A model generated the notes under the pieces. That model saw nothing but the letters and a program-made list of their open reading frames with translations. It was not told the origin of the DNA and made no database searches. Positions 39,294 through 51,589 of a stretch of 64,000 nt of DNA are shown here, piece after piece. Source of the stretch: Qipengyuania mesophila (GTDB taxonomy: Bacteria > Pseudomonadota > Alphaproteobacteria > Sphingomonadales > Sphingomonadaceae); the NCBI RefSeq assembly GCF_019711655.1, contig NZ_JAIGNU010000002.1, positions 620,001 to 684,000 of the forward strand, written 5' to 3'. Every line of letters begins with the position of its first letter. Within the stretch, counting starts at the first letter, position 1. The translations under genes and the position numbers were made by a program.

Positions 39294-41072
39294 TCAGCCG
39301 ACCAGCCGCCCATCCTCGAAATTGAGCACCCGGTCGCACCAGGCGATGGTCGACGAGCGGTGCGCGATCACCAGAATCGTCACCGCAGGATCGATCTTCC
39401 GGATCGCTTCGACAACCTCGGTCTCGGTCTGGCTGTCGAGCGCGCTGGTTGCCTCGTCGAAGACCAATACATCGGCCTGTTTGTAGAGCGCACGGGCGAT
39501 GCCGATACGCTGCTTCTGCCCGCCCGACAGGCGCACGCCGTCCTCCCCCACATGCGTATCGAGACCTTCGGGGAGTTCGGCGATGAACGCTGCGAGCGAG
39601 GCCCCTTCGACGGCACGCGCAAGCCGATCCTCGTCGACATCGGCGGGTGTGGCGCAGAAGGCGATGTTCTCGCGGATCGAACTGTCGGCCAGGTAGGGCT
39701 GCTGCGCCACATGTCCCACGCGCAACCGCCAGGCGGGAAGATTGTCCGCATCGAGCGCAACCCCATCGACCAGTATCCGGCCGGCGGACGGATCGAGCAG
39801 GCCGAGCACGAGATCGGCGAAGGTGCTCTTCCCGCCACCGCTCTTGCCGGCAATGCCGATCCTGGCCCCTTTGGCGATGGTCAGATCGATCCCGGCGAGG
39901 GCGGGCCTGCCGCGCCCCGGATAGGCGAAGGCAACACCGGTGAAGCGGATTTCACGATCGAACGGCAGCGGGGCGGCCGGCGGTGGCGCCGCATCAACCG
40001 GCAGTTTTAGCTTGTCGATGACATCCTGTAGCGAATGGTGATCGCCGCGGATTCCGGCCCAGCCCGAATAGCTGGCCTGAACCGCGGGAAGCAGTTTCTG
40101 GATGCCGAGGATCATCCCTCCGAGAACCGGGATCGTCGCTGTCAGGCCAGGCCCTGCGCTGGCGAGATAATAGGTCAAGCCGACAATCACGAGGATAACT
40201 GCCGTTTCGACGATGTAGCGCGGCACCATGCCGATGATCGAGGCATGCGCGCGAGCATCGAGAATGGTCCGATCGAGTTCGCGGAACCGTTGCACGAAAT
40301 GCGCCTGGGTGCGGCCGAGCAGGACATCGCGCACCGATCCGAGTGCTTCCTGCAATGTCTGGACCCGTCGCGCCTGCAAGCCCGCGATCTGAGCGCTCTT
40401 GTGACGCAGCGCCCCCGTCACGAACGCCGCGATGGCGAGATAGGCGGCACAGATTCCGCCGAGCGCGATCAGCGCGATGAATGGCTGGATTGCCACCAGC
40501 GTGACCAACACCGCCATTGCAGTGATCACATGCGAGACGATCTGGATGACTGGTGCGATCGTTCGTATTGTGATCGACTTGACCTTGTTGACCGTGGCGA
40601 TCAGCTCGCTGCCGCTCTTCTGCAGATGGTAGGAATAGGGCTGTGCCAGCGTGTTGGCGAACACCTGGGCCGCCAGATCCTGCGAGGTGCGGAACACGAA
40701 GCGCTGGCTCAGCCAGTAGAGTACGACCTTCACCGCCGCAGCCACGATTGCCGATCCCACAACGGCCGCCGAGGCGATGGCAAAACGGTCAGGTCCTGCT
40801 AGGTGCGAAAGTCGCTCGAGCGCAAAACGGACAAGATAATGGCCCGACTGGCCGGCATCGCCGGAAATGAGGGCGAGGAAGGGAAGTAGCGCGCCGATGG
40901 TCACGATGTCGGCCAGCGCGACCACTCCGCTGAGCAGCAGGATCAGCCGGAGCTCGCGTTTGCGCACGGGCGGCAGAAACCGATGGAGTTCGCGCAGATC
41001 GCGATAGATCGTCCGCCCACGGCGCGACCCGGACCTGGCAACGGGGCCTCGATTGGCTGAGAAATCGTCCAT
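39294..41072 (-). CDS. ABC exporter, fused membrane and ATPase domains (PglK/MsbA-like)
   Basis: The 592-residue half-transporter has six membrane helices (residues about 40-330) and an ATP-binding domain (about 350-590). The latter has Walker A GKSGGGKST, signature LSGGQKQR, Walker B VLVFDEATSALD and H-loop VIAHRSST. The first helix region (GALLPFLALIS) resembles the PglK group that flips lipid-linked sugars. It lies 13 bp downstream of the GT2 gene on the same strand. It is a plausible exporter or flippase for the product of the neighbouring glycosyl/sulfo/halopyrrole cluster, but a general lipid or glycan exporter is equally possible. Confidence 0.9.
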   Translation of the reverse strand: MDDFSANRGPVARSGSRRGRTIYRDLRELHRFLPPVRKRELRLILLLSGVVALADIVTIGALLPFLALISGDAGQSGHYLVRFALERLSHLAGPDRFAIASAAVVGSAIVAAAVKVVLYWLSQRFVFRTSQDLAAQVFANTLAQPYSYHLQKSGSELIATVNKVKSITIRTIAPVIQIVSHVITAMAVLVTLVAIQPFIALIALGGICAAYLAIAAFVTGALRHKSAQIAGLQARRVQTLQEALGSVRDVLLGRTQAHFVQRFRELDRTILDARAHASIIGMVPRYIVETAVILVIVGLTYYLASAGPGLTATIPVLGGMILGIQKLLPAVQASYSGWAGIRGDHHSLQDVIDKLKLPVDAAPPPAAPLPFDREIRFTGVAFAYPGRGRPALAGIDLTIAKGARIGIAGKSGGGKSTFADLVLGLLDPSAGRILVDGVALDADNLPAWRLRVGHVAQQPYLADSSIRENIAFCATPADVDEDRLARAVEGASLAAFIAELPEGLDTHVGEDGVRLSGGQKQRIGIARALYKQADVLVFDEATSALDSQTETEVVEAIRKIDPAVTILVIAHRSSTIAWCDRVLNFEDGRLVG

Positions 41073-41085
41073 CTGGCCGAGGGTT

Positions 41086-42150
41086 CTAGGTCGGAACCCG
41101 TGCGGGTTGAATACCCCAGACCGAGGGGGTCACCTTGAAGTTGAGGAGGAAGTCGAGCCACAGGCCGATCTGGCCGGTGAAGCTGGTGCGATAGAGGCCC
41201 GCTCTATGCAGGACTTTCATCCGGGTCAGGACATTGGGGCAGGTGTCGAGCACTCGGCACTGGTCGACGACCTCCTTCGCCTCGTCGGTCAGCAGGTCGC
41301 GCCACTCGTCGAGCAGCGCGATGCTCGCCATCATCCGTCCGCGAAGCTTGCCCCGGCGCAGGCGCTCGAACCTGCTCCGACGAGGCCTGTAGAAGGGCGG
41401 GATTCGCGCGCCGATCGCATTGTCCTGGTGCTGCCGCCAATCGACCGTGGGTTCACTGCTCAGGTGGAAGCGACCGCCCGTGCCTTCGATGATGAGATAC
41501 AGCCAGTGATCGTGCGGGAATGGGCCGATGCTGGCTGCCGTATCCGCGAGCAGGGCGAAACCCTCCCGGTTCGTCACCATGGTGTGACCCGACGCGATGT
41601 TCTGGATCACCGCATTGCGAATGCCCGGACCGCCGCGACGGCGTGGCGCCTGCCCAAGCGAGCGGCCCTGCGCGTCGATCAGCGCCGAAGCGCTGCCGAA
41701 GGCGAAGGGTCGGGTCGCATCGCCGAGCGCACAGGCCTCGACGGCGCGTTGCAGCTTGTCGGCGTGCCAGATGTCGTCCTGATCGCAAAAGGCGTAGAAG
41801 TCGGCATCGCGCGGCGCCTGCTCGATGAGGTGACGGAAGTTCCTCGCAAAGCCCATTCCGGGCCCGGAAATGATCTCGAACCGCCCCTTGGTCCACCGGC
41901 TCCGCGCCCGCTCGAGCAGGATCAGCGTATCGTCGTCCGAGCCGTCGTCCGAGGCGAGGATGTGGATTTGCCCGAGGGTCTGCCGTTCGAGCGACTCGAT
42001 CTGCTCCTCGAGGAAGCGCGCGCCGTTGAGCGTGGCCAGCAATATCTGGAATGAACCCCTACCTGCACGCACTGTGGCACCGCCTCCCCTCACAACACCA
42101 TCTTTCGCTACGAATGGGTTTTTTGGCAACTGGGCAAACACCTCGTGCAC
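41086..42150 (-). CDS. Glycosyltransferase family 2
   Basis: A 354-residue cytoplasmic transferase. The GT-A fold is shown by FQILLATLNGARFLEEQIESL, ASDDGSDDDT, the metal/nucleotide motif FCDQDDIWH, and a later HDHWLYLI. It resembles rhamnosyl-type transferases of polysaccharide clusters. The start is a GTG at 42150, but the first 30 residues are low-confidence and a later GTG is possible. It is divergent from the next glycosyltransferase and upstream of the ABC exporter. Donor and acceptor sugars are unknown. Confidence 0.88.
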   Translation of the reverse strand: MHEVFAQLPKNPFVAKDGVVRGGGATVRAGRGSFQILLATLNGARFLEEQIESLERQTLGQIHILASDDGSDDDTLILLERARSRWTKGRFEIISGPGMGFARNFRHLIEQAPRDADFYAFCDQDDIWHADKLQRAVEACALGDATRPFAFGSASALIDAQGRSLGQAPRRRGGPGIRNAVIQNIASGHTMVTNREGFALLADTAASIGPFPHDHWLYLIIEGTGGRFHLSSEPTVDWRQHQDNAIGARIPPFYRPRRSRFERLRRGKLRGRMMASIALLDEWRDLLTDEAKEVVDQCRVLDTCPNVLTRMKVLHRAGLYRTSFTGQIGLWLDFLLNFKVTPSVWGIQPARVPT

Positions 42151-42255
42151 ACTGTCTCGGCAGAAATTTGTCTTGCTTCACGGATGATTGGCAGGGCGCT
42201 CAATGCGGATTAGGGTCCGGGCAACCTCCATCCGGATTGCGAAAGCCAGACCTTC

Positions 42256-43341
42256 TTGCCGACCATATCATTCATTTCGGGACCGGCATTGGGACACTTC
42301 GGCCGCATTGCCCTAGTCGCGCGCAGCCTGCGCGATCTGGTCGACTGCACCATCGAGATCGTCATTCCCGCGACTGCGAAATTCGATATCGCGCGCTTCG
42401 ACGACGAGTTCTCGATCCGGCGCGTGCCGATCGCGGAGCGCGACCTCGACTATCCCGCCCCTGCCTTCGCCGAGGCGCTGGACGCGGTCTTCGAGGAAAT
42501 CAGGCCGGACCTCGTCGTCCACGACTGCTGCCCGGTACGATGGCTCGCGACCACGCGCTTCCCCGATTGCCCACGTGCGATCGTCACCAATGGCTTCCTC
42601 ACGCGCCTCGCGGCCAGGGAGACTGTCCAGACCAGGCTGTTCCGCCGGCGCGCGAGGCTGATCCGGCGCGAGCGCGCAAGGCGGGGACTGCCTCGCTTGG
42701 CAAGCGGTTTCGATCTTTACGAGGCTGACCGCGTGCTACTGGCCGATCCCGCCTGGCTGGTCCCCGATACGGGGCCGCTGCCCGAGACCTATCGCGCCTG
42801 CGGAGCGGTGTGGTGGGAAGCGGGGGGCGAGCTTGGCGAGGCCATGGCCGGTGCGCAGGATACCCTGCTGTGCTCGATGGGCTCGACGGGAAAGCTCGTC
42901 GACGACCGCTTCTGCGCGCTTGCCGCCGAGCGGTTCGCCTGCGAGGACATCGTGCGCGTGCACAGCAAGGGCGAGGGAGAGACCGTGCGCAGGGTCGGGG
43001 ATCACAGGCTGTTCGAGTCGGGCATCCTGCCGCTCGGCCGCCTCCTGCCGCAGGCGCGAGCGGTGATGACGCAGGGCGGTGCGGGATCGAGCTACCAGGC
43101 GCTCGCCGCGGGCAAGCCGCTGATGGTCGTGCCCTCGCACCCCAACCAGCGCATTCTCGGCGAGTTGCTCGAGCAGCGCGGGGTCGCCATCACCGTGGAG
43201 AGCCGACGTTCGCTCGCGCGGGTCCCGGCCGACCGCATCGCCCGGATCGCCGCCCGCGCCGCCGAGGCAGGGCCCGCCCATATCGCCAACGACGGCGCCC
43301 CAAGCATCGCGAGGCATCTTGTCGAACTCCTCCCGCACTGA
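42256..43341 (+). CDS. GT1-like (GT-B fold) glycosyltransferase
   Basis: A 361-residue protein beginning at TTG (TISFISGPALGHFGR, the expected first strand and acceptor loop of GT-B enzymes). The C-terminal donor-binding half has LLCSMGSTGK, MTQGGAGSSYQALAAGKPLMVVP and HPNQRILGELLEQRG, the pattern of UGT/MGT-type macrolide and lipid glycosyltransferases. No strong ribosome-binding site is seen. Its end overlaps the sulfotransferase gene by 23 bp, so the two likely act on the same product. Confidence 0.85.
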   Translation: MPTISFISGPALGHFGRIALVARSLRDLVDCTIEIVIPATAKFDIARFDDEFSIRRVPIAERDLDYPAPAFAEALDAVFEEIRPDLVVHDCCPVRWLATTRFPDCPRAIVTNGFLTRLAARETVQTRLFRRRARLIRRERARRGLPRLASGFDLYEADRVLLADPAWLVPDTGPLPETYRACGAVWWEAGGELGEAMAGAQDTLLCSMGSTGKLVDDRFCALAAERFACEDIVRVHSKGEGETVRRVGDHRLFESGILPLGRLLPQARAVMTQGGAGSSYQALAAGKPLMVVPSHPNQRILGELLEQRGVAITVESRRSLARVPADRIARIAARAAEAGPAHIANDGAPSIARHLVELLPH

Positions 43342-45016
43342 GCGGCAGCCGTGCCTCGTCATCGTCACCGGCTGCCAGCGCAGCGGGACTTCGCTCGTCG
43401 GGCAGATCGTCGGCGCGCATCCGCAGGCGCTGCTGCTCGACGAGGACGAGGGGATGATGCGCTGGGCGCGCGCGCTGCTGGCGGGCGATCCGCGGCGGCA
43501 CCTGCTGCTGCCGGGACTGCTCGCCCGCGCGGCGGAGAAATACCGCGACGGCAATCCGAAGATCGTCCGGCGCCCGCTGCGCCCGACCGCGCTTCACCCG
43601 GACATCACCCATCTGGTGCTCAAGGCGCCCAATCTGACCTATAGCCACGCGGCGATCGCGCGGCTCCCCGGGCCGGTTAAGATCATCCACCCAGTGCGTG
43701 ACGTGCGCGCGGTCGTGGCCTCGATGGACCGGCTGAGAGGCACCGACATCGCCGCCAACCAGCTGCGTCTCCTCCGCCAGGATCCGGGGGCCGCCGCGAC
43801 CTATGCCCAGGAGATCGCCATGCTCGGGGATCCCGGCGTCGCGAAGCATCTCAAGCGCGCGCTGGTGTGGCGGATCAAGTCGTGCGCACATGCTCGTTTC
43901 GCCGATGCCGGGCTCGATCCGCTGGTGTTTCGCTACGAGGATTGCGTCGCCGATCCGCGCGCCTTTGCCGAGCGCATCGCGACGCATGTCGGCCTGCCCT
44001 CCGCTGAAGCGATGGTCGGGCATGCTGAGGTCCTGCAGGGCGATGGTCCCGGCGCGCTCGACCGCGAACGTCCGATCGACCGCGGCTCGCTCGGCAAGTG
44101 GCAGCAAGTGCTGACCCTGCGCGAGGAGCGCGAAATCCTCGACCTGGTCGGCGACGCGATGGAGGAGCTGGGCTACGACCGCGGCCCGCAGCTTTCGGAA
44201 GAGCAGCGACCCGCAACGAGTGGCCAGACCGACCTGCGCGACGCGCCCGTCATCGTCACCGGCCGCGGGGGCAGTGGAACACGGCTCATCTCGGGCATCG
44301 TCCAGCAGTGCGGCGTGTTCCTCGGCAACGAGCTCAACGTGTCGGCGGATTCGCTCGAATGGGTCGACACGATCTACCCGATCGCGATCGAGAAGCATGC
44401 GACGGGCGACGATCCCCCGCCCGAACGGCGCGCCAGCTGGACCGCTGCGCTGCGCAGCACGGCGGAGCGCATCCGCAGCGACGGCAAGCTGGCCGACGAT
44501 GCACTCTGGGGCTTCAAGCTGCCCGAGGCGATGCTCATCGCGCCCGAACTGCTCGAGGCCTTTCCCGAGGCCAAGGTTGTCCACCTGGTCCGTCATCCGG
44601 TGACCAGCAGCTTGCGCCGCACGCATGTGACCTCGCGCACCGACAACATGGTCGGCAAGGCGGTCTGCGCCGCCGCCTATCGTGCGGTCGGTCGTGATCC
44701 GGCACTGGCCGAGAGCGATCCCGACTGGCGGCGCAATGCGATCACCTGGCGCTACCAGGTCGATCCCGTGGCGCGCCTCGGTAAGGCGTTGGGCCCCGAA
44801 CGTTACCTCGAGATCAGTTTCGAGGAGCTCTGCGCCGACCCGACCGCCACACGGCAGCGCGTGCTCGCCTTCCTCGGCCGGGAGGCGGGCGACATGCCGC
44901 CGATCCCCGTCAGCAAGCGCCGCGCCGCGACGCGGCTGTGGCTGCGCCCGCAGAAGAAGTGGATCTGGCGTTTGTGCGGCGAGACCGCGCGGATGCTAGG
45001 CTACGGCCCGGTCTGA
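43319..45016 (+). CDS. Double sulfotransferase-domain protein
   Basis: A 565-residue fusion of two P-loop sulfotransferase domains. The first (about 10-280) opens with VIVTGCQRSGTSLVG and has the 3-prime-phosphate motif IIHPVRDVRAVVASM. The second (about 308-560) opens with VIVTGRGGSGTRLIS and has VHLVRHPVTSSLRRT. The second motif has Arg where a Ser/Thr usually follows the Gly-Thr, so the domains may differ in activity. The start is TTG at 43319, required to keep the first P-loop. It should transfer sulfate from PAPS to a hydroxyl or amine of a glycolipid or small molecule. Its TGA abuts the TGA of the convergent acyltransferase gene. Confidence 0.85.
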   Translation: MSNSSRTERQPCLVIVTGCQRSGTSLVGQIVGAHPQALLLDEDEGMMRWARALLAGDPRRHLLLPGLLARAAEKYRDGNPKIVRRPLRPTALHPDITHLVLKAPNLTYSHAAIARLPGPVKIIHPVRDVRAVVASMDRLRGTDIAANQLRLLRQDPGAAATYAQEIAMLGDPGVAKHLKRALVWRIKSCAHARFADAGLDPLVFRYEDCVADPRAFAERIATHVGLPSAEAMVGHAEVLQGDGPGALDRERPIDRGSLGKWQQVLTLREEREILDLVGDAMEELGYDRGPQLSEEQRPATSGQTDLRDAPVIVTGRGGSGTRLISGIVQQCGVFLGNELNVSADSLEWVDTIYPIAIEKHATGDDPPPERRASWTAALRSTAERIRSDGKLADDALWGFKLPEAMLIAPELLEAFPEAKVVHLVRHPVTSSLRRTHVTSRTDNMVGKAVCAAAYRAVGRDPALAESDPDWRRNAITWRYQVDPVARLGKALGPERYLEISFEELCADPTATRQRVLAFLGREAGDMPPIPVSKRRAATRLWLRPQKKWIWRLCGETARMLGYGPV

Positions 45017-46615
45017 TCAGGCAGCGCCGCGGCGCAGGAGGAGGGCGATGGCCGGCTGCGGGTGCCCGGCATGGCCGAGATCCGCATCGCCCGCTTCGAT
45101 CATCGCGAAGGCCGCGCCGAAGAGGCGACGCAAATCCGCTTCGAGGCCTTCGCGCGACTGGCCCGGCTCGAGCTTGTGCAGCAGCAGGAAGGTCGCGCCT
45201 TCTTCAAGCAGCACGGCGAGATTGCGCGCATAGGCATCCCGTTCGCTGCCCGGCATGGCGTGCAGGCAGCCGCAATCGAAAGCGCAGTCGAAGGACCCTT
45301 CTACAGCGTGGGGACGAGTAATGTCTGCCACGCGATAGTCGAGCAGCAAACCCGATTGCCCATGCTTCTCGCGGGCGCGACGAATAGCTGCCTCGGCGAA
45401 ATCGACCGCCACCACATCGAGACCCTGCTGTGCTGCGAAGAAGGCGTTTTCCCCCTGACCGCAGCCCACTTCGAGCAGGCGCATTCCGGGGCGGAAATGG
45501 CCATCGGCGACTGCCCCGACGAGCGGCGCGGGAACACCGGCGGACAACCAGAAGGGCGCATAGTCGCGGCGGGCCCAGCGGGCGTTCCAGCGATCGCGGC
45601 GCGAGGGCGGCTTGCGGATCGGGACAAGCCTGCCGAGTAAGCCCTTGCGCGCAGGAGCAGGCGCGTTGGGCTTCTGCCAGCCATTGCGCATCAGCTGGAG
45701 CGATCGGAGCGGCACATTGCCGAAATCGCTCCGCCAGCGATGTTCGAGGCGGGTGACATAATCGCGCGCCAGCGCGGCCGTGTCCGCTGCGCTCGCCCCG
45801 CCCTCGATGTCCCCACCCAGGGCATGCTCGATTTCGAGCGCGAGCTGCCCCTCCCCATCGCTGCGGATAAAGACGGGGTGGCACGGAACCCCGGCGCTCA
45901 GTGCGAGAAAGGCATAGCTGGTGGTGAAATCCCGCGGCGCCCCGAGGAAGGAAAACGTCTGTTTCGCACCGCCGCGCAGCCCGTCGCCAGTACTGTGCAC
46001 CACACGGCCCCGGCGCAGGTCGCGCTGGGCTTCGGCGAGGATGCGCAGGTCGCTCGATTGCGTGAGTTCGAGCATGCGCAGACCCTGGGGATGTTCGATC
46101 GCGAGCAGATCCTGGAAATCGATCGGCGCTATCGCGGTCAACTCCACGCCCATGATGGCGAGTATCGGTGGGACCAGACGGGCTGGCCCGAAATGGCTGC
46201 CGACCAGCATGACGCCGCCGGACCCGGCGAGACGGTCCAACCCCTCGATACGCACGACATCCGCCAGCTCGCCTCGCGAGAGCCGCACCAGCTTCTGCAT
46301 CAGCAGGAACTGAACCAATTGCTCGGAAATGAGCCGCTGGAAGGCATAGCCCGCGTCCTCCGGCGCGGCGCCGACCGCCACCGCCGCTTCGCCGGTGCCC
46401 TCACTCGGACCTAGCAACGCAGCGAAACGGGTATCCTTCCCCTTTGCCACCTGCCGCAGCGTGGCCAGGAATTCGGACACTCCCATTGCTGCCAGCGCGT
46501 CGAACGCAGCTTGGGACAGCCCCATGCGGTCGAGCTTGCGCTGCAGCGGATCGACGATCGTCGCACGCCGGCTAAGGCCCAGTCGGGCGGCGAATGCCGC
46601 CAGCAGCTTTCTCAT
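45017..46615 (-). CDS. LpxL-like acyltransferase fused to a SAM methyltransferase
   Basis: A 532-residue two-domain protein. Residues about 100-310 resemble the LpxL/HtrB lysophospholipid acyltransferase family, with the catalytic-histidine segment VGSHFGPARLV. The usual HX4E/D reads H-F-G-P-A-R, so the acid is replaced by Arg. Residues about 340-532 form a class I methyltransferase with LLEVGCGQGENAFFA, VVAVDFAEAAI and a TPMT-like CAFDCGCLHAM. ATG 46615 overlaps the halogenase stop (ATGA). As last gene of the proline-pyrrole operon it could move the pyrrolyl group from the carrier protein to an acceptor and methylate it, in the way pyrrole transferases act in clorobiocin; that is inference. 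Confidence 0.82.
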   Translation of the reverse strand: MRKLLAAFAARLGLSRRATIVDPLQRKLDRMGLSQAAFDALAAMGVSEFLATLRQVAKGKDTRFAALLGPSEGTGEAAVAVGAAPEDAGYAFQRLISEQLVQFLLMQKLVRLSRGELADVVRIEGLDRLAGSGGVMLVGSHFGPARLVPPILAIMGVELTAIAPIDFQDLLAIEHPQGLRMLELTQSSDLRILAEAQRDLRRGRVVHSTGDGLRGGAKQTFSFLGAPRDFTTSYAFLALSAGVPCHPVFIRSDGEGQLALEIEHALGGDIEGGASAADTAALARDYVTRLEHRWRSDFGNVPLRSLQLMRNGWQKPNAPAPARKGLLGRLVPIRKPPSRRDRWNARWARRDYAPFWLSAGVPAPLVGAVADGHFRPGMRLLEVGCGQGENAFFAAQQGLDVVAVDFAEAAIRRAREKHGQSGLLLDYRVADITRPHAVEGSFDCAFDCGCLHAMPGSERDAYARNLAVLLEEGATFLLLHKLEPGQSREGLEADLRRLFGAAFAMIEAGDADLGHAGHPQPAIALLLRRGAA

Positions 46616-47856
46616 GCAGCGATCTGACCGGTTCGGTGGAGCATCTCGCGCATCAGCCGGACCGCCTCGATCTCCATGACTTCGGGCGTGTAGAGGCGTC
46701 CCGAGAAGATTTCCGCGATGTCGCTCTGGTGGGTGAAATGCGCGAGCCGGAGAAAGGCGAAGGGATAGTCCCAAAAGGTTCGGATGACATATTCGACCAC
46801 GCGTTGCGCGCGCATCGACGCCTCGACGAAGCCGTCGAACTGGTCGGGGTGCGCGGGGTCGGCGAGGCTGCGATCTATGACCTGCGCGGCGAGCCTGGCT
46901 TCCTGCAGCGCAATCAGCACACCGAAGGAGAAGATCGGATCGAAAAAGCGGTGTGAATCCCCAACGCAAAGGAAACCTGGCCCCGTGAAATTTTCGATCG
47001 AGTAGGAATAGTTCGAGATTGTTTCGACCTCGCCGCAAAGCTCGACATCGCGGCTGCGCTCAATCAGCTCGCCATTCACCTTGCCCAGCGCATCGCGAAA
47101 AATCTGTTGGAGATCACGTCCGTCGCGGCGCAGCGCGCCTTTTGGCAGCACGATCCCGAGGCTGGTGACGTCCTTGCTGAGCGGGATCGACCACGCCCAG
47201 TGGTGGCGTTCGCCGTAGAAGATATGCGTGCTGCCGTCGCGCTCGCCCGGATCGCGTACCAGGCCGCGCACCTGCGCGAACACGGCGGTCTGGTTTTCGT
47301 AGCCTGTCCGGCTTTTCGGCCCGGTCAGGCCCTTGCCAGCGAGGAAGGTCTTCTGACCCGAGCAATCGGCCACATAGTGGCTCGCGATTGCGTGCCGATC
47401 GCCTGCCTCCCCGCGCACCACGATCCCTGTGACCCGGCCGTCATCACGCGTGACGTCGCGGCACGTGCCGCGCACCAGCTCGGCCCCCATGGCAACCGCC
47501 TTGTCGAGCAGCGCAGCATCGAATTCGTCGCGCCGCACCTGCCATGTCGTCGCCGGTCGGCGCGAACTGCCTTCGCAGGCTTCGACCGGCACCCAGAAAC
47601 GCGCACGGCTATTGGCTCCGGTCACCGTGACGCCGCGTTTGACCGGATAGGCCGCTGTCCGGAGATGGTCGCTCATGCCCAACTCGTCGAGTAGGCCGAC
47701 ACATTCACCGGTGAGCGATTCGCCTATGTGATGACGGGGGAAACTCTCCTTCTCGACGAGGACAACACTGCGCCCGGCTTTGCGTAGATGGATCGCCAGC
47801 GCGGCACCCGCGGGGCCGGCGCCGATGATCGCGACATCGCAGTCTGGCGCGATCAC
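46612..47856 (-). CDS. FADH2-dependent halogenase, PltA/Bmp2 type (carrier-protein-bound substrate)
   Basis: A 414-residue flavoprotein: FAD motif VAIIGAGPAGAAL at residues 8-20, GESLTGE near 45, the halogenase motif WAWSIP near 223, and GDSHRFFDPIFSFGV near 310. Lys73 (YPVKRG) lines up with the catalytic lysine of PltA, so halogenation is plausible. One change from most relatives is SFG in place of SSG at the end of the FDPIF motif. GTG start overlaps the carrier-protein stop (GTGA). With the adenylation enzyme, carrier and dehydrogenase it would chlorinate or brominate a pyrrolyl-S-carrier. A non-halogenating oxidoreductase of the same family remains possible. Confidence 0.85.
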   Translation of the reverse strand: MIAPDCDVAIIGAGPAGAALAIHLRKAGRSVVLVEKESFPRHHIGESLTGECVGLLDELGMSDHLRTAAYPVKRGVTVTGANSRARFWVPVEACEGSSRRPATTWQVRRDEFDAALLDKAVAMGAELVRGTCRDVTRDDGRVTGIVVRGEAGDRHAIASHYVADCSGQKTFLAGKGLTGPKSRTGYENQTAVFAQVRGLVRDPGERDGSTHIFYGERHHWAWSIPLSKDVTSLGIVLPKGALRRDGRDLQQIFRDALGKVNGELIERSRDVELCGEVETISNYSYSIENFTGPGFLCVGDSHRFFDPIFSFGVLIALQEARLAAQVIDRSLADPAHPDQFDGFVEASMRAQRVVEYVIRTFWDYPFAFLRLAHFTHQSDIAEIFSGRLYTPEVMEIEAVRLMREMLHRTGQIAA

Positions 47857-48122
47857 CGTTCAGGCGCCCTGCCGCCCAGGTGCCGGCAGACCAGCCTGGC
47901 AAGCGCGCCAATGTCAGCGAAATTCTCGGGTGCCAGCTCCTCCAGCGGGATTTCGATGCCATAGGCTTTCTCGAGCTCCATCACGAGTTGGAGCAGTTCG
48001 ATCGAGTCGAGCAACTGCTCCTCGATCAGCGCCGTATCTCGCGTCAATGCGGTATCGCGATCAACCAGCTTGGCGACCTTGCGGATCGCCTCCACAACCA
48101 CGCTTTCAATGTCCCTCGTCAT
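47853..48122 (-). CDS. Free-standing acyl/peptidyl carrier protein
   Basis: An 89-residue acidic four-helix carrier. The phosphopantetheine serine is in EQLLDSIELLQLVMELE near residue 40. It lies between the adenylation enzyme and the halogenase with 4-bp overlaps on both sides (ATGA with the former, GTGA with the latter), so it is made in step with both. In pyrrole pathways such a carrier holds prolyl, then pyrrolyl, then halopyrrolyl groups. No phosphopantetheinyl transferase is in the window; a genomic one would be needed. Confidence 0.92.
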   Translation of the reverse strand: MTRDIESVVVEAIRKVAKLVDRDTALTRDTALIEEQLLDSIELLQLVMELEKAYGIEIPLEELAPENFADIGALARLVCRHLGGRAPER

Positions 48123-49654
48123 GAAGTTTCGCCCTGATCGTACAGCAAGCTGCGATGGTTCGCGTCCAGCCGCGCCATGTCACACTTTCCCGAACTCGTT
48201 GTGGGCCAATCTTCGTAGAAAATAAAGCAACTTGGCACCTCGTTCTGCGGCAGGACGAGCGACAGTGCTCGGCGCAATCCGGCCTGCGAAAGCGGCTCCC
48301 CTGGTTGCGCGGCGACATGCAGGCACAGGCTTTGTCCCGCGTCGCACACGGTCGCCGCGGCCCCCGCCACGCCGTCGAGCGCGAGCGCCCGCGCCTCGAT
48401 CGCGCCGAGTTCGACCCGATGCCCGCGCAGCTTGGTCTGGCGATCCCTGCGGCCGACGAAGCGGATATCGCCCGCCGCGTCGCGAAAGCCGAAGTCGCCG
48501 GTGCGGAAGAGATCGTCGCGATCCGCAAAATAGCGCTGCCGGGTCAGTTCGGGCCGGTTCCAGTAGCCCTGCATCACTGTGGGTCCGGCGACGCAGATCT
48601 CCCCGGTCTCACCGGGTTCTACCGGCGCGCCATACGCATCGCAGATCTCGATCCGCGAATGGGCACAGGCGCGTCCGATATTGGGCGCTCCCGCGGTTGC
48701 CGGGGCCCGCTCGACTTCAGTCCAGGCGATGACATTGGTCTCGGTCGGTCCGAAGAGATTGGCGAAGCGCGCCTGCGGCACCGCCGCAATCAGCTGCGCG
48801 AGCGCCGGCGGCGGATAGACTTCGCCCGCGAACAGCACCCAGCGCAAGTCGGGCAGCGCGCGCGCCGCGAGCCCTCCGCGCGCGACCATGGCCTGGAGGA
48901 TGGTCGGCACGGTGTAGAGCACGCTGATCCGGTGTTCCTCGGCCAACTGGCAGAGGCGCGCCGGAAACAGCGCGTCGCCCTCCTCGGCCAGCACGACCTG
49001 CGCCCCGATCCGCAGGCCGGTGAGGATGTCGAGCAGCGAGAGGTCGAAGTGCAGCGGGGCGATGTTGAGGAAACGATCGCCCGGACCGAAGCCGAAAGTC
49101 TCCAGCGCCCAGTCCGAAAACGTGGCGATATTGCCGTGGCTCAACACGATGCCCTTGGGATCGCCCGTAGTCCCCGAGGTCATCAGGATCATCGCGGGAT
49201 CGCCGGCCGTGAGCCGCGGCCCTGCGAAGCGCTCCACTTCGCAGCCGGGCGGCATCTCCAGCGTTTCGGAGAGAACCAGCTGCCCCGTATCGGGCAAGTG
49301 TCCGCCGCCGTCCTCGAAGCGGGCGAACGTCGGCGCATCAAACAGAGCCATGGTGGGTTCGAGGTCGGCGAGCAGCGCCGTCAATCGCGAAGCCGGCGCA
49401 CGCCGGTCGAGCGGTACCGCGACCGCGCCGCACAGCAGGCTCGCGAAGAGCCATGCGACCGCCTCGGGGCACTTGCGCAGCGCGAGGGTCACACGGTCGC
49501 CCGGGGCGACACCCCGCTCCTGCAGCCGACCAGCGCAAAAGTGGACCGCATCCCAGAATTCCCGTCCTGACCAGGTCTGCCCGGCACAGGCTATAACGGG
49601 TTCATTGCCGGCCTCGGCGAAGCGCGCGGCGAAGTCGCGCAGGACGCTGGTCAC
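48119..49654 (-). CDS. Amino-acid adenylation enzyme, L-proline type (PltF/PigI-like)
   Basis: A 511-residue stand-alone adenylation enzyme. AMP-binding motifs are LMTSGTTGDPKGIVLSHGN (near 155), NLFGPTETNV (near 305), RTGDFG (near 395) and the catalytic lysine in TTSSGKCDMARL near the C-terminus. APLHFDLSLLDI supplies the Asp that holds the alpha-amino group, and with VLFAGEVYPP and GPTETN it follows the pattern of L-proline-activating PltF, PigI and RedM. It should load proline onto the adjacent carrier protein. D-alanyl (DltA-like) activation is the main alternative, but no dlt genes are nearby. GTG start overlaps the dehydrogenase stop. Confidence 0.88.
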   Translation of the reverse strand: MTSVLRDFAARFAEAGNEPVIACAGQTWSGREFWDAVHFCAGRLQERGVAPGDRVTLALRKCPEAVAWLFASLLCGAVAVPLDRRAPASRLTALLADLEPTMALFDAPTFARFEDGGGHLPDTGQLVLSETLEMPPGCEVERFAGPRLTAGDPAMILMTSGTTGDPKGIVLSHGNIATFSDWALETFGFGPGDRFLNIAPLHFDLSLLDILTGLRIGAQVVLAEEGDALFPARLCQLAEEHRISVLYTVPTILQAMVARGGLAARALPDLRWVLFAGEVYPPPALAQLIAAVPQARFANLFGPTETNVIAWTEVERAPATAGAPNIGRACAHSRIEICDAYGAPVEPGETGEICVAGPTVMQGYWNRPELTRQRYFADRDDLFRTGDFGFRDAAGDIRFVGRRDRQTKLRGHRVELGAIEARALALDGVAGAAATVCDAGQSLCLHVAAQPGEPLSQAGLRRALSLVLPQNEVPSCFIFYEDWPTTSSGKCDMARLDANHRSLLYDQGETS

Positions 49655-50751
49655 AGGCCGCTGCCGATCTGGGAGGCTATCGTATTGAGCTGCACCTCGC
49701 TGGTCCCCGAGGCGGACAGCAGCGCCAGCGCATCATCGAGCGCATCGGCGAGCCCGAGTTCGCCGCGCCAGGCTGCACCGGCCACCAGCCGGCGCAGTTC
49801 GCCGGTACATTCGGCGATCGCTTCACTGACGAAAAGCTTGCTCATCGACGGCTGGAGCAGATCGCTGCCACTCTGGTCGAGGCGCCACGCCGCCTGCAGC
49901 ATGAGCCACCGCGCCGCCTCGATCCGCGTCCGGATTCGTGCGAGCGCATGGTCGGTCGCCTGATGCCGCCCGCGTTCGGAGAGGTGTCGCATCACGCGTT
50001 CGAAATCCGCCTGCAGCGCACCGAGCGATCCGGCGAGAATGCAGCTGCGCTCCCAGCGCATGATGTCGAGCATTTGCGCCATGCCGAGATCGCCGCGGCG
50101 CAGCAGGTCGCTTTCGGCGACCGGACAGTCATCGAAGACCACTTCGGCCGGCGCGGTCGCGGCGAGCCCACGCACGCCCTCGATCGGAGTCACGGACAGT
50201 CCCGGCGTGTCGCGCGGCAGCAGCACCATCGAATAGGCGAAAGGAGAGCGCTGTTCGCGCGAGCGCGCAAGGACCACGAACAGGTCCGCGATTGAACCAT
50301 TTGTGACGCAGGTCTTGGCTCCCGAAAGGCGGTAGCCGGTGCCCTCTGCGACGAGTTCGGACCCGCAAGCGTCGAGATCGGATCCCCCAGAGGCTTCGGA
50401 AAATGCCAACGCCCCGACCGCTGCGCCGCTCGCCAGCCGCGGCAGCCAGGCGGCCTTCTGCTCCGCCAACCCGTGATTCGCGACGGCCATCGAACAGCCG
50501 AACAGATGTGCCCCAAGCGCGAACAGCGCGCCGCGATCGATTCCGCCCCTGCCCAGCGCCTCGAAAGCCAGCACGCTCGCCAGGGCGGGATACCCGCCGC
50601 CGCCGAATTCCCCGGGCAGGCAGAGCCCGGTCCAGCCGCCATCGCCCCACTGGTCCCACGAAGGCGTCCCACCGGTTTCACTGAATTGCCTCGCGAAACC
50701 GGTAGCGCGCGCGACGACGCCGCTATCGCCTTCGGTCAGTCCGAAATCCAT
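49651..50751 (-). CDS. Acyl-CoA dehydrogenase-fold enzyme, likely prolyl-S-carrier dehydrogenase
   Basis: A 366-residue flavoenzyme with the acyl-CoA dehydrogenase layout: helical N-terminus, middle sheet with FSEASGGSDLDA and SGAKTCVTNGS, and C-terminal helices ending GTSEVQLNTIASQIG. A likely catalytic Glu lies in RWERSCILAG, the isovaleryl-CoA-dehydrogenase position used also by prolyl-PCP oxidases such as PltE and RedW. As first gene of the operon with a proline-type adenylation enzyme and carrier, it should oxidise prolyl-S-carrier to pyrrolyl-2-carboxyl-S-carrier. Without that context it would be called a generic acyl-CoA dehydrogenase. Confidence 0.85.
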   Translation of the reverse strand: MDFGLTEGDSGVVARATGFARQFSETGGTPSWDQWGDGGWTGLCLPGEFGGGGYPALASVLAFEALGRGGIDRGALFALGAHLFGCSMAVANHGLAEQKAAWLPRLASGAAVGALAFSEASGGSDLDACGSELVAEGTGYRLSGAKTCVTNGSIADLFVVLARSREQRSPFAYSMVLLPRDTPGLSVTPIEGVRGLAATAPAEVVFDDCPVAESDLLRRGDLGMAQMLDIMRWERSCILAGSLGALQADFERVMRHLSERGRHQATDHALARIRTRIEAARWLMLQAAWRLDQSGSDLLQPSMSKLFVSEAIAECTGELRRLVAGAAWRGELGLADALDDALALLSASGTSEVQLNTIASQIGSGL

Positions 50752-50902
50752 CGCTCAGCCACCCGCTCCCTGATGCACCGTCGTTCCTTGCCCCTCCCTG
50801 CCGCGATCAGCAAGGCACCGAACGCCGACGGTCGCCGAATTTCGCTCGATGACTCCCGTGCGATTGCGCAATTTTTTCAGAATGTCGGGCCTATGGGGAA
50901 AC

Positions 50903-51589
50903 ATGATCGGAGGGCGCTTGCGTCCATGGCTTCGCTCGCGACGCGGCCGTTCGTACGAGATCGCCAGCGATTTCATCAAGCTGGAATCGGATATCCTGGC
51001 GTGCTGCAGGCTGGCACTTGCCGCCCCCGAGCTGAATGCCGCCGCCAATCTGCGCAATTTGCCGAAGAAGCCCGACAATGCGCGGCTCGGCGGGCGCAAT
51101 CGCCACAAATGGGCGCTCCGCCTGCCCGACCGGGGCGACCGCGATATCTTGCGCCGCTGGCCCGAGATGACCGCCTTTCTCGAGGCGTTCCCCGGCGAGT
51201 GCATCTATGCGCATGTCGCGGAAATGCTCCCATCGGCCAAGCTGGGAATCCATCGTGACGGTGTGGACGCGCAGGGCAAGGTCCAGGAGCACTACGACCT
51301 GTTCAACGCCACGCTCCGCTTCCACCTTCCCTTGCAGACGAGCGACAACGTCCATGTCTATTCGGATGGGCAGCTCTACAACATGCGCGTGGGCGAAGTC
51401 TGGATGCTCGACAACATGAAGCCGCATGCCCTCGTCAACGACGATGCCAGCGTCGTCCGGCTCCATCTCATTTTCGACGTCGTGCCGAATGCGGAGGCCT
51501 TGGCACTGATCGCGCAGGCCGATGCCTCGCTCGGCTCTGCCGACTTGGAGCGAATCGCGCATTTCTGGACCGAGCGACAAGCCGCCTGA
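50903..51589 (+). CDS. Asp/Asn hydroxylase-fold 2-oxoglutarate oxygenase, proline-3-hydroxylase-like
   Basis: A 228-residue cytoplasmic oxygenase. Iron ligands are in GIHRDG near 117 (HxD) and KPHALVND near 173; the Arg in VRLHLIFDV near 187 should bind 2-oxoglutarate. The order HRD, RFHLPL, GEVWMLDN, H, N, RLHLIFD follows the cis-3-proline hydroxylase branch of the Asp/Asn hydroxylase family. GGGGAA stands four bases before ATG 50903; in-frame ATGs at 50849 and 50882 would extend the protein by up to 18 residues. It is divergent from the prolyl dehydrogenase gene. The substrate may be free or bound proline or an aspartyl residue. Confidence 0.85.
   Translation: MIGGRLRPWLRSRRGRSYEIASDFIKLESDILACCRLALAAPELNAAANLRNLPKKPDNARLGGRNRHKWALRLPDRGDRDILRRWPEMTAFLEAFPGECIYAHVAEMLPSAKLGIHRDGVDAQGKVQEHYDLFNATLRFHLPLQTSDNVHVYSDGQLYNMRVGEVWMLDNMKPHALVNDDASVVRLHLIFDVVPNAEALALIAQADASLGSADLERIAHFWTERQAA

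Follow-up and report, generated by a model that had tools for sequence, protein, structure and literature searches.

Halopyrroles built on a carrier protein are usually freed by a thioesterase or handed to an assembly line, and the pyrrole units of pyoluteorin and prodigiosin feed polyketide synthases (PKSs). In the bmp1-4 system of Pseudoalteromonas, the source of tetrabromopyrrole and pentabromopseudilin, the protein Bmp1 presumably carries a thioesterase, in agreement with the molecule name of the solved chain 6cxt_A. A published scheme legend is in line with this arrangement (PMC5577590). For clorobiocin, PMC11218499 describes how, in the CloN1-N7 system, a methyltransferase and an acyltransferase methylate a proline-derived, carrier-bound pyrrole acyl group and pass it to a sugar hydroxyl. 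Since antiSMASH 8 includes a rule for polyhalogenated pyrroles, according to a passage of its description (PMC12230676), this kind of gene cluster is already known. Here, we analyzed a 64,000-nucleotide stretch of the alphaproteobacterium Qipengyuania mesophila (contig NZ_JAIGNU010000002.1, positions 620,001 to 684,000; hereafter the window, to whose first letter all coordinates refer). It contains a five-gene operon that, in our assessment, probably makes and transfers a halogenated pyrrole-2-carboxyl group, with acyl transfer as the mode of release.

The operon lies on the minus strand. Its first gene (49651-50751) encodes a 366-residue protein with the N-terminal, middle and C-terminal acyl-CoA dehydrogenase (ACAD) domains of Pfam, a putative prolyl-S-PCP dehydrogenase (PCP, peptidyl carrier protein) of the Bmp3/PigA/RedW type. 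It is followed by genes for a predicted stand-alone proline adenylation enzyme (48119-49654; 511 residues; AMP-binding domain, E-value 3.5e-80), a free PCP (47853-48122; 89 residues; PP-binding domain, 4.9e-8), a Bmp2-like flavin-dependent halogenase (46612-47856; 414 residues; Trp_halogenase, 4.5e-24, and FAD_binding_3) and a 532-residue protein (45017-46615) in which Pfam recognizes an acyltransferase of the LpxL-like family PF03279 joined to a TPMT-like S-adenosylmethionine (SAM) methyltransferase, our candidate release enzyme. Neighboring genes overlap by four bases at all four junctions (49651/49654, 48119/48122, 47853/47856 and 46612/46615). The initial annotation had described a unit of four coupled genes, and four open reading frames (ORFs) indeed lie at exactly the ends given for them within 46612-50751, all on the minus strand. 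Their coupling was confirmed, but the extent of the unit was not: the ATG of the fifth gene, at 46615, lies within the halogenase stop codon outside this interval, so the unit is larger. The acyl- and methyltransferase that had been listed as partners of the cassette are present as one fused protein inside the operon, which therefore comprises five genes. No thioesterase was detected among these genes or fused to the carrier (ORF list and Pfam scan; thioesterases elsewhere in the genome were not searched for). A promoter scan returned no candidate, and one terminator-like site was found, fewer than in shuffled sequence. As judged from its sequence, the four-gene proline-to-halopyrrole cassette is real and well supported, and it is not a chance assembly, because the five-gene order recurs in a metagenome-assembled genome (MAG) labelled Sphingomonadales (locus L011).

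The predicted activation of proline rests chiefly on the adenylation pocket. In a full-length search, linear gramicidin synthetase reached the top score, with two of its domains summed; in a search with the pocket region alone, the L-proline ligases 6o6e (4e-30) and 7thn (3.5e-17), which we take to be PltF and PigI, came ahead of all other listed chains. With positions assigned via motif landmarks, the pocket reads D-L-L-Y-L-A-L-V-I-K (DLLYFALVIK in L011 and DLFYLALVCK in four genomes of another family of the phylum, f188) and equals that of PltF at eight of the nine positions compared, PltF having C at the ninth and the tenth lying outside the alignment. A comparison with PltF and PigI had been proposed in the initial annotation; its outcome is a pocket of the PltF type that is not fitted to another acid. 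Adenylation of an acid other than proline was rejected on the basis of the pocket residues and of the L-proline ligases as the best matches of this region.

The dehydrogenase and the carrier point in the same direction. The closest solved relative of the dehydrogenase is 6cxt_B (8.6e-55), followed by the prolyl-ACP dehydrogenase 4irn (ACP, acyl carrier protein) and the L-prolyl-PCP dehydrogenase 5zw0, and that of the carrier is 6cxt_A (2.8e-7). We take 6cxt to be the Bmp1-Bmp3 pair, with 6cxt_B as Bmp3 and 6cxt_A as the carrier domain of Bmp1; its chains appear in the structure listings as an alpha/beta hydrolase fold protein and a butyryl-CoA dehydrogenase. A WER motif of the dehydrogenase is aligned in 6cxt_B and 4irn and reads WEK in 5zw0. 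Among the NCBIfam models, PigA (222 bits) and RedW (202 bits) scored ahead of the next model (138 bits), all below their equivalog cut-offs. An identity as an ordinary fatty-acid dehydrogenase was rejected on the basis of these structures and models, and the enzyme is best described as a dehydrogenase of the prolyl-carrier type. Together with the adenylation pocket, this class assignment supports the original proposal of a proline-to-halopyrrole cassette. The PP-binding match of the carrier exceeds its cut-off and the phosphopantetheine serine is present (LLDSIEL), so that the carrier is predicted to be loaded.

The halogenase contains the motifs GAGPAG and WAWSIP and the catalytic lysine, of which the lysine and WxWxIP are common to all 29 rows of our tree and thus mark the wider family only. 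Its best solved match is 5bva (7e-78), presumably Bmp2, followed by ChlB4 (7fco, 4.6e-44), 5buk (1.5e-42), which we take to be Mpy16, and PltA (5dbj, 5.9e-36). The initial designation as a PltA/Bmp2-type enzyme therefore stands in its Bmp2 part, PltA being less close. The phylogeny that had been suggested at the same time was computed for 29 halogenase-like rows (all hits of the family, class and phylum searches, L011, a second f188 enzyme and three solved chains) and rooted at the midpoint. The enzymes of the window and L011 group together (support 100/97), and these two, Bmp2 and the halogenases of the four f188 genomes form a group of seven rows split from the other 22 (100/99). Assignment to the PltA type was rejected on the basis of the better match to Bmp2 and this grouping. 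At three sites of Bmp2, the substitutions Y302S/F306V/A345W yield a mono-halogenating variant, as stated in a passage of PMC5577590. The corresponding residues (305, 309 and 348 in chain numbering) are F/I/V in the window and L011, F/F/I in f188, Y/F/A in Bmp2 and S/V/W in ChlB4. The first site is F or Y in all seven rows of the group and S or T in all of the other 22. Since F or Y at this position is confined to the group with Bmp2, repeated halogenation is likely, with no particular number of halogens predicted. By its motifs and its grouping with Bmp2, the enzyme is predicted to act on the carrier-bound pyrrole.

In a contig scan that finds close relatives only, L011 was the single relative; it shows the order dehydrogenase, adenylation enzyme, PCP, halogenase and acyltransferase, as in the window, with protein identities of 52%, 48%, 44% and 56% for the first four and 28.5% for the acyltransferase region. 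For the halogenase, a search at 1e-40 matched two of 298 family genomes (the window's own and G052), and one at 1e-55 matched a single genome of the 274 from the order, again the window's own, while 20 further members of the genus were listed without a match. At 1e-45, matches came from 11 of 385 genomes of the class and 13 of 398 of the phylum, the window's own being counted in both. The samples share genomes with one another, and each was drawn from a larger group. Four of the 13 phylum hits, all from f188, have a carrier, an adenylation enzyme and a dehydrogenase beside the halogenase; the eight other hits outside f188 were placed in the tree only. With the acyltransferase profile, the window's genome was the only one among 240 genomes of the class to match at 1e-12, and at 1e-6 it was joined by G023 alone among 246 genomes of the order. 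Searches of plasmids gave 59 records with a halogenase match at 1e-20, all below 60% identity, and no match to the acyltransferase domain at 0.001. The family locus of G052 (L010; 33-34% identity) was rejected as a relative, the other cassette proteins being unmatched in its 4-kb locus and the tree placing its halogenase-like protein away from that of the window. The neighboring gene there encodes a membrane protein without a Pfam match, MMPL-like on visual inspection. Likewise rejected were the class hits G401, G672, G443 and G442 (four of the ten others, with neighborhoods fetched), none of which has the full set, G442 giving weak adenylation-enzyme and carrier matches.

In the pathway that we infer, the adenylation enzyme would load L-proline onto the free carrier, the dehydrogenase would oxidize prolyl-S-PCP to pyrrolyl-2-carboxyl-S-PCP, and the Bmp2-like halogenase would halogenate the carrier-bound pyrrole, probably more than once. 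The PF03279-type domain would then transfer the acyl group from the carrier to a hydroxyl or amine acceptor, the fused methyltransferase domain would methylate the product or the acceptor, and acyl transfer would replace thioesterase hydrolysis or chain extension by a nonribosomal peptide synthetase (NRPS) or PKS. The domain identities, the pocket, the halogenase grouping, the gene coupling, the retention of the acyltransferase in a second genome and the absence of two NRPS/PKS families are read from the sequence; the individual reactions, how many halogens are added and of which kind, release through acyl transfer, the acceptor and any part played by the neighboring sulfo- and glycosyltransferases are predictions.

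Several observations make acyl transfer the likely exit, namely the absence of a thioesterase from the operon, the lack of PF00668 and PF14765 matches in the genome, the presence of the acyltransferase in L011 and a precedent in G023. The initial annotation had noted that no PKS or NRPS module lies nearby, and this holds genome-wide for the two families tested: no match was found at 0.001 to the condensation domain PF00668 (matched in four of 14 control genomes) or the PKS dehydratase domain PF14765 (PS-DH; matched in one of the 14), no search having been aimed at further kinds of PKS. Uptake of the pyrrolyl group by an NRPS or a reducing PKS is therefore unlikely. The fusion protein combines the PF03279 region with a C-terminal SAM methyltransferase domain (Methyltransf_25 and TPMT matches). 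A genome scan for PF03279 at an E-value of 0.01 found 45017-46615 and nothing else (four of 14 control genomes match), so the acyltransferase is not one of a lipid A acyltransferase set. The proteins of the window, L011 and G023 share the histidine of the HX4D/E motif and an aspartate further downstream. A single 978-residue protein of G023, a member of the window's family, has AMP-binding, PP-binding and PF03279 (33.7 bits) domains in a row (L060:8319-11255); by its domain order, this ligase-carrier-acyltransferase protein is a precedent for a PF03279 domain directly after a carrier. As a separate observation, the lack of any other PF03279 match in the genome fits a bacterium without ordinary lipid A acylation, and Sphingomonadales replace lipopolysaccharide by glycosphingolipids.

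A number of findings weigh against this interpretation. The PF03279 score of the fusion protein is 22.3 bits, equal to the cut-off (23.5 bits in the genome scan and 29.2 bits in L011), and the acid of HX4D/E, presumably the catalytic motif of PF03279 acyltransferases, is replaced by R in the window (HFGPAR) and H in L011 (HFGPAH) and is present in none of the three proteins. Because the cut-off is barely reached and this acid is absent, catalysis by the acyltransferase domain is uncertain. Searches for a solved relative of the domain were negative, a profile search giving one chance-level match (E 1.2), and the quality of an AlphaFold model computed from a two-row alignment was too low for any use (mean pLDDT 38.9). 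The link between acyltransferase and cassette was seen in two genomes only. In L011, no methyltransferase is fused to the acyltransferase and the next gene encodes a Crp-type regulator, so that the predicted methylation step lies outside the conserved core. Finally, Bmp2 alone stands next to the window and L011 halogenases at a support of 90/74 and is flagged as a long branch, as are the other two solved chains and the second f188 enzyme, so that its exact placing is unsure.

Compared with the described systems, the operon combines familiar parts in a different way. It shares with bmp1-4 a prolyl-AMP ligase, a carrier, a prolyl dehydrogenase and a related halogenase, and chains that we take to be Bmp proteins provide the nearest solved structures for three of the four window proteins. 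It differs from bmp1-4 in its free carrier of 89 residues, in ending with a PF03279 acyltransferase-methyltransferase and in the residues F/I/V of its halogenase in place of Y302/F306/A345; moreover, Pfam scans of the operon and the surrounding ORFs revealed no chorismate lyase or cytochrome P450 such as Bmp6 and Bmp7. The first three steps, adenylation pocket and dehydrogenase family also resemble those of pyoluteorin (PltA/PltE/PltF/PltL) and prodigiosin (PigA/PigI) formation. However, the window genome has no PS-DH or condensation match and its halogenase is nearer to Bmp2 than to PltA. The clorobiocin system, compared by description only, is alike in having a pyrrole acyl group on a carrier together with a methyltransferase and an acyltransferase, whereas CloN6 and CloN7 are two individual proteins by name (PMC11218499) and the window domains are fused. 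In contrast to clorobiocin, the window operon also includes a pyrrole-type halogenase.

The operon is part of a 12.3-kb segment (39294-51589) between two maltose/glucan utilization segments, as delimited by DNA comparison within the genus. Convergent with the operon, a plus-strand gene (43319-45016) encodes a 565-residue protein with two sulfotransferase-type regions (Sulfotransfer_3 in two stretches); a search at 1e-30 detected it in one of 119 family genomes, its own. It is overlapped by a plus-strand gene (42256-43341) for a 361-residue glycosyltransferase-like protein of the macrolide/UDP-glycosyltransferase kind, with matches to MGT (5.3e-8, far below the cut-off) and EryCIII-like_C (2.3e-7, just under the cut-off). 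Next come minus-strand genes for a family 2 glycosyltransferase (41086-42150; Glycos_transf_2, 1.1e-13) and an ABC exporter of the HepA/MsbA/PglK kind, thus of the glycan or lipid type (39294-41072; Pfam, with NCBIfam models below their cut-offs). On the other side, divergent and 97 bases from the operon, lies a plus-strand gene (50849-51589) for an aspartyl/asparaginyl-hydroxylase-like enzyme (Asp_Arg_Hydrox, 1e-15), which ends 27 bases before a transporter gene of the sugar locus and could belong to either the block or that locus; it had no real match in six fetched stretches of relatives. The sulfo- and glycosyltransferases that had been counted as partners of the cassette thus share its block, but they occupy other transcription units and are linked to it by location only.

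In the genus comparison, which scored only the best first-look candidates, the interior of the block gave only short matches among those listed for 30 other genomes, chiefly to about 150 bases of the ABC gene. Long matches to the transporter-amylase flank were found in at least 17 of the 30, and long matches to the transporter/LacI/glucoamylase flank in at least three (G1031, G1047 and G1048), on another contig than the first flank. In six stretches from five relative genomes, the block genes were unrecognizable, except that L053 and L054 each contain a match to the dehydrogenase, at 27%. As its genes are poorly matched in relatives while its flanks match in part of them, the block looks accessory; the GC profile shows no clear step at it. 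In L053, the amylase gene is followed by one that reads as CysD by eye.

Other fates of the pyrrolyl group were also considered. Hydrolysis, either spontaneous or by a distant thioesterase, could yield halopyrrole-2-carboxylate and, after loss of CO2, a free halopyrrole, in the manner of tetrabromopyrrole, with the fusion protein acting on another substrate. This route would suit a halogenase, dehydrogenase and carrier that are all nearest to Bmp proteins, and the Bmp pathway ends in hydrolytic release and decarboxylation, as described in PMC5577590. It is nevertheless improbable, given that a thioesterase domain is missing from both operon and carrier, that the acyltransferase gene overlaps the halogenase gene and likewise lies next to it in L011, and that sites 302/306/345 read F/I/V instead of the Y/F/A of Bmp2. 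Alternatively, the acyltransferase domain may be catalytically dead or structural, the transfer falling to a partner outside the block. The replacement of HX4D/E by HX4R/H would be expected in this case, but the histidine and downstream aspartate persist in the window, L011 and G023, the last of which also lacks the acid, and the gene is conserved in the L011 operon; we give this possibility only a small chance.

A wider scheme would make the entire 12.3-kb block one pathway: the operon would couple the pyrrole, the neighboring glycosyl- and sulfotransferases would then incorporate it into a glycolipid or glycan that carries sulfate, and the ABC protein would export the product. All ten genes of the block have only short matches among those listed for the 30 genus genomes and, apart from the 27% dehydrogenase match, are unrecognizable in the six stretches of relatives; the sulfotransferase was not detected at 1e-30 in the other 118 family genomes searched, and the ABC protein is similar to exporters of glycans and lipids. 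On the other hand, gene orientation and order divide the block into several units (the operon, the convergent glycosyl- and sulfotransferase genes, the family 2 glycosyltransferase with the ABC gene, and the divergent hydroxylase gene), and co-occurrence is seen in the window genome only, the L011 contig ending about 0.9 kb past the acyltransferase and its upstream genes being of other kinds. We thus regard a single pathway as possible but doubtful. It is tempting to speculate that a repurposed LpxL-like acyltransferase-methyltransferase caps a membrane glycolipid or another polar acceptor with a polyhalogenated pyrrole and that the neighboring genes complete a sulfated halopyrrole glycolipid, a product class of which we know no example; we consider this quite unlikely. 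Release of the halopyrrole group by acyl transfer remains our preferred reading, and a product class not recognized before, as suggested in the initial annotation, is plausible.

Our literature search returned no paper joining halogenase, pyrrole and lysophospholipid acyltransferase, and the titles and abstract openings of the matches listed mentioned no halopyrrole cluster in Erythrobacter or Sphingomonadales. The novelty would thus lie in the release end of the cassette: LpxL-like acyl transfer is suggested as a further exit for carrier-bound halopyrroles, in a genome without a condensation or PKS-dehydratase match. The system is small (five genes) and testable, shows a naturally occurring alternative to the Bmp2 residues by which halogen number is set, and may provide a lead to halogenated products in a group with no such cassette among those matches.

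The cassettes of the four f188 genomes, members of the same phylum (L034 in G773, L035 in G863, L036 in G727 and L037 in G878), share with the window the carrier, adenylation enzyme, dehydrogenase and a halogenase of the same group. They differ from it in that the acyltransferase-methyltransferase is unmatched in the four fetched stretches and in that a conserved protein of about 425 residues (no Pfam match in the two copies scanned) is encoded between carrier and adenylation enzyme, giving the row carrier, 425-residue protein, adenylation enzyme, dehydrogenase and halogenase. By eye, this protein has the look of a condensation/CoA-acyltransferase fold (HPLCDAKG in L036). Downstream of the L036 cassette lie genes for MipA, a second flavoenzyme, a short-chain dehydrogenase/reductase (SDR), a ketoacyl synthase (KAS) and an MMPL protein.

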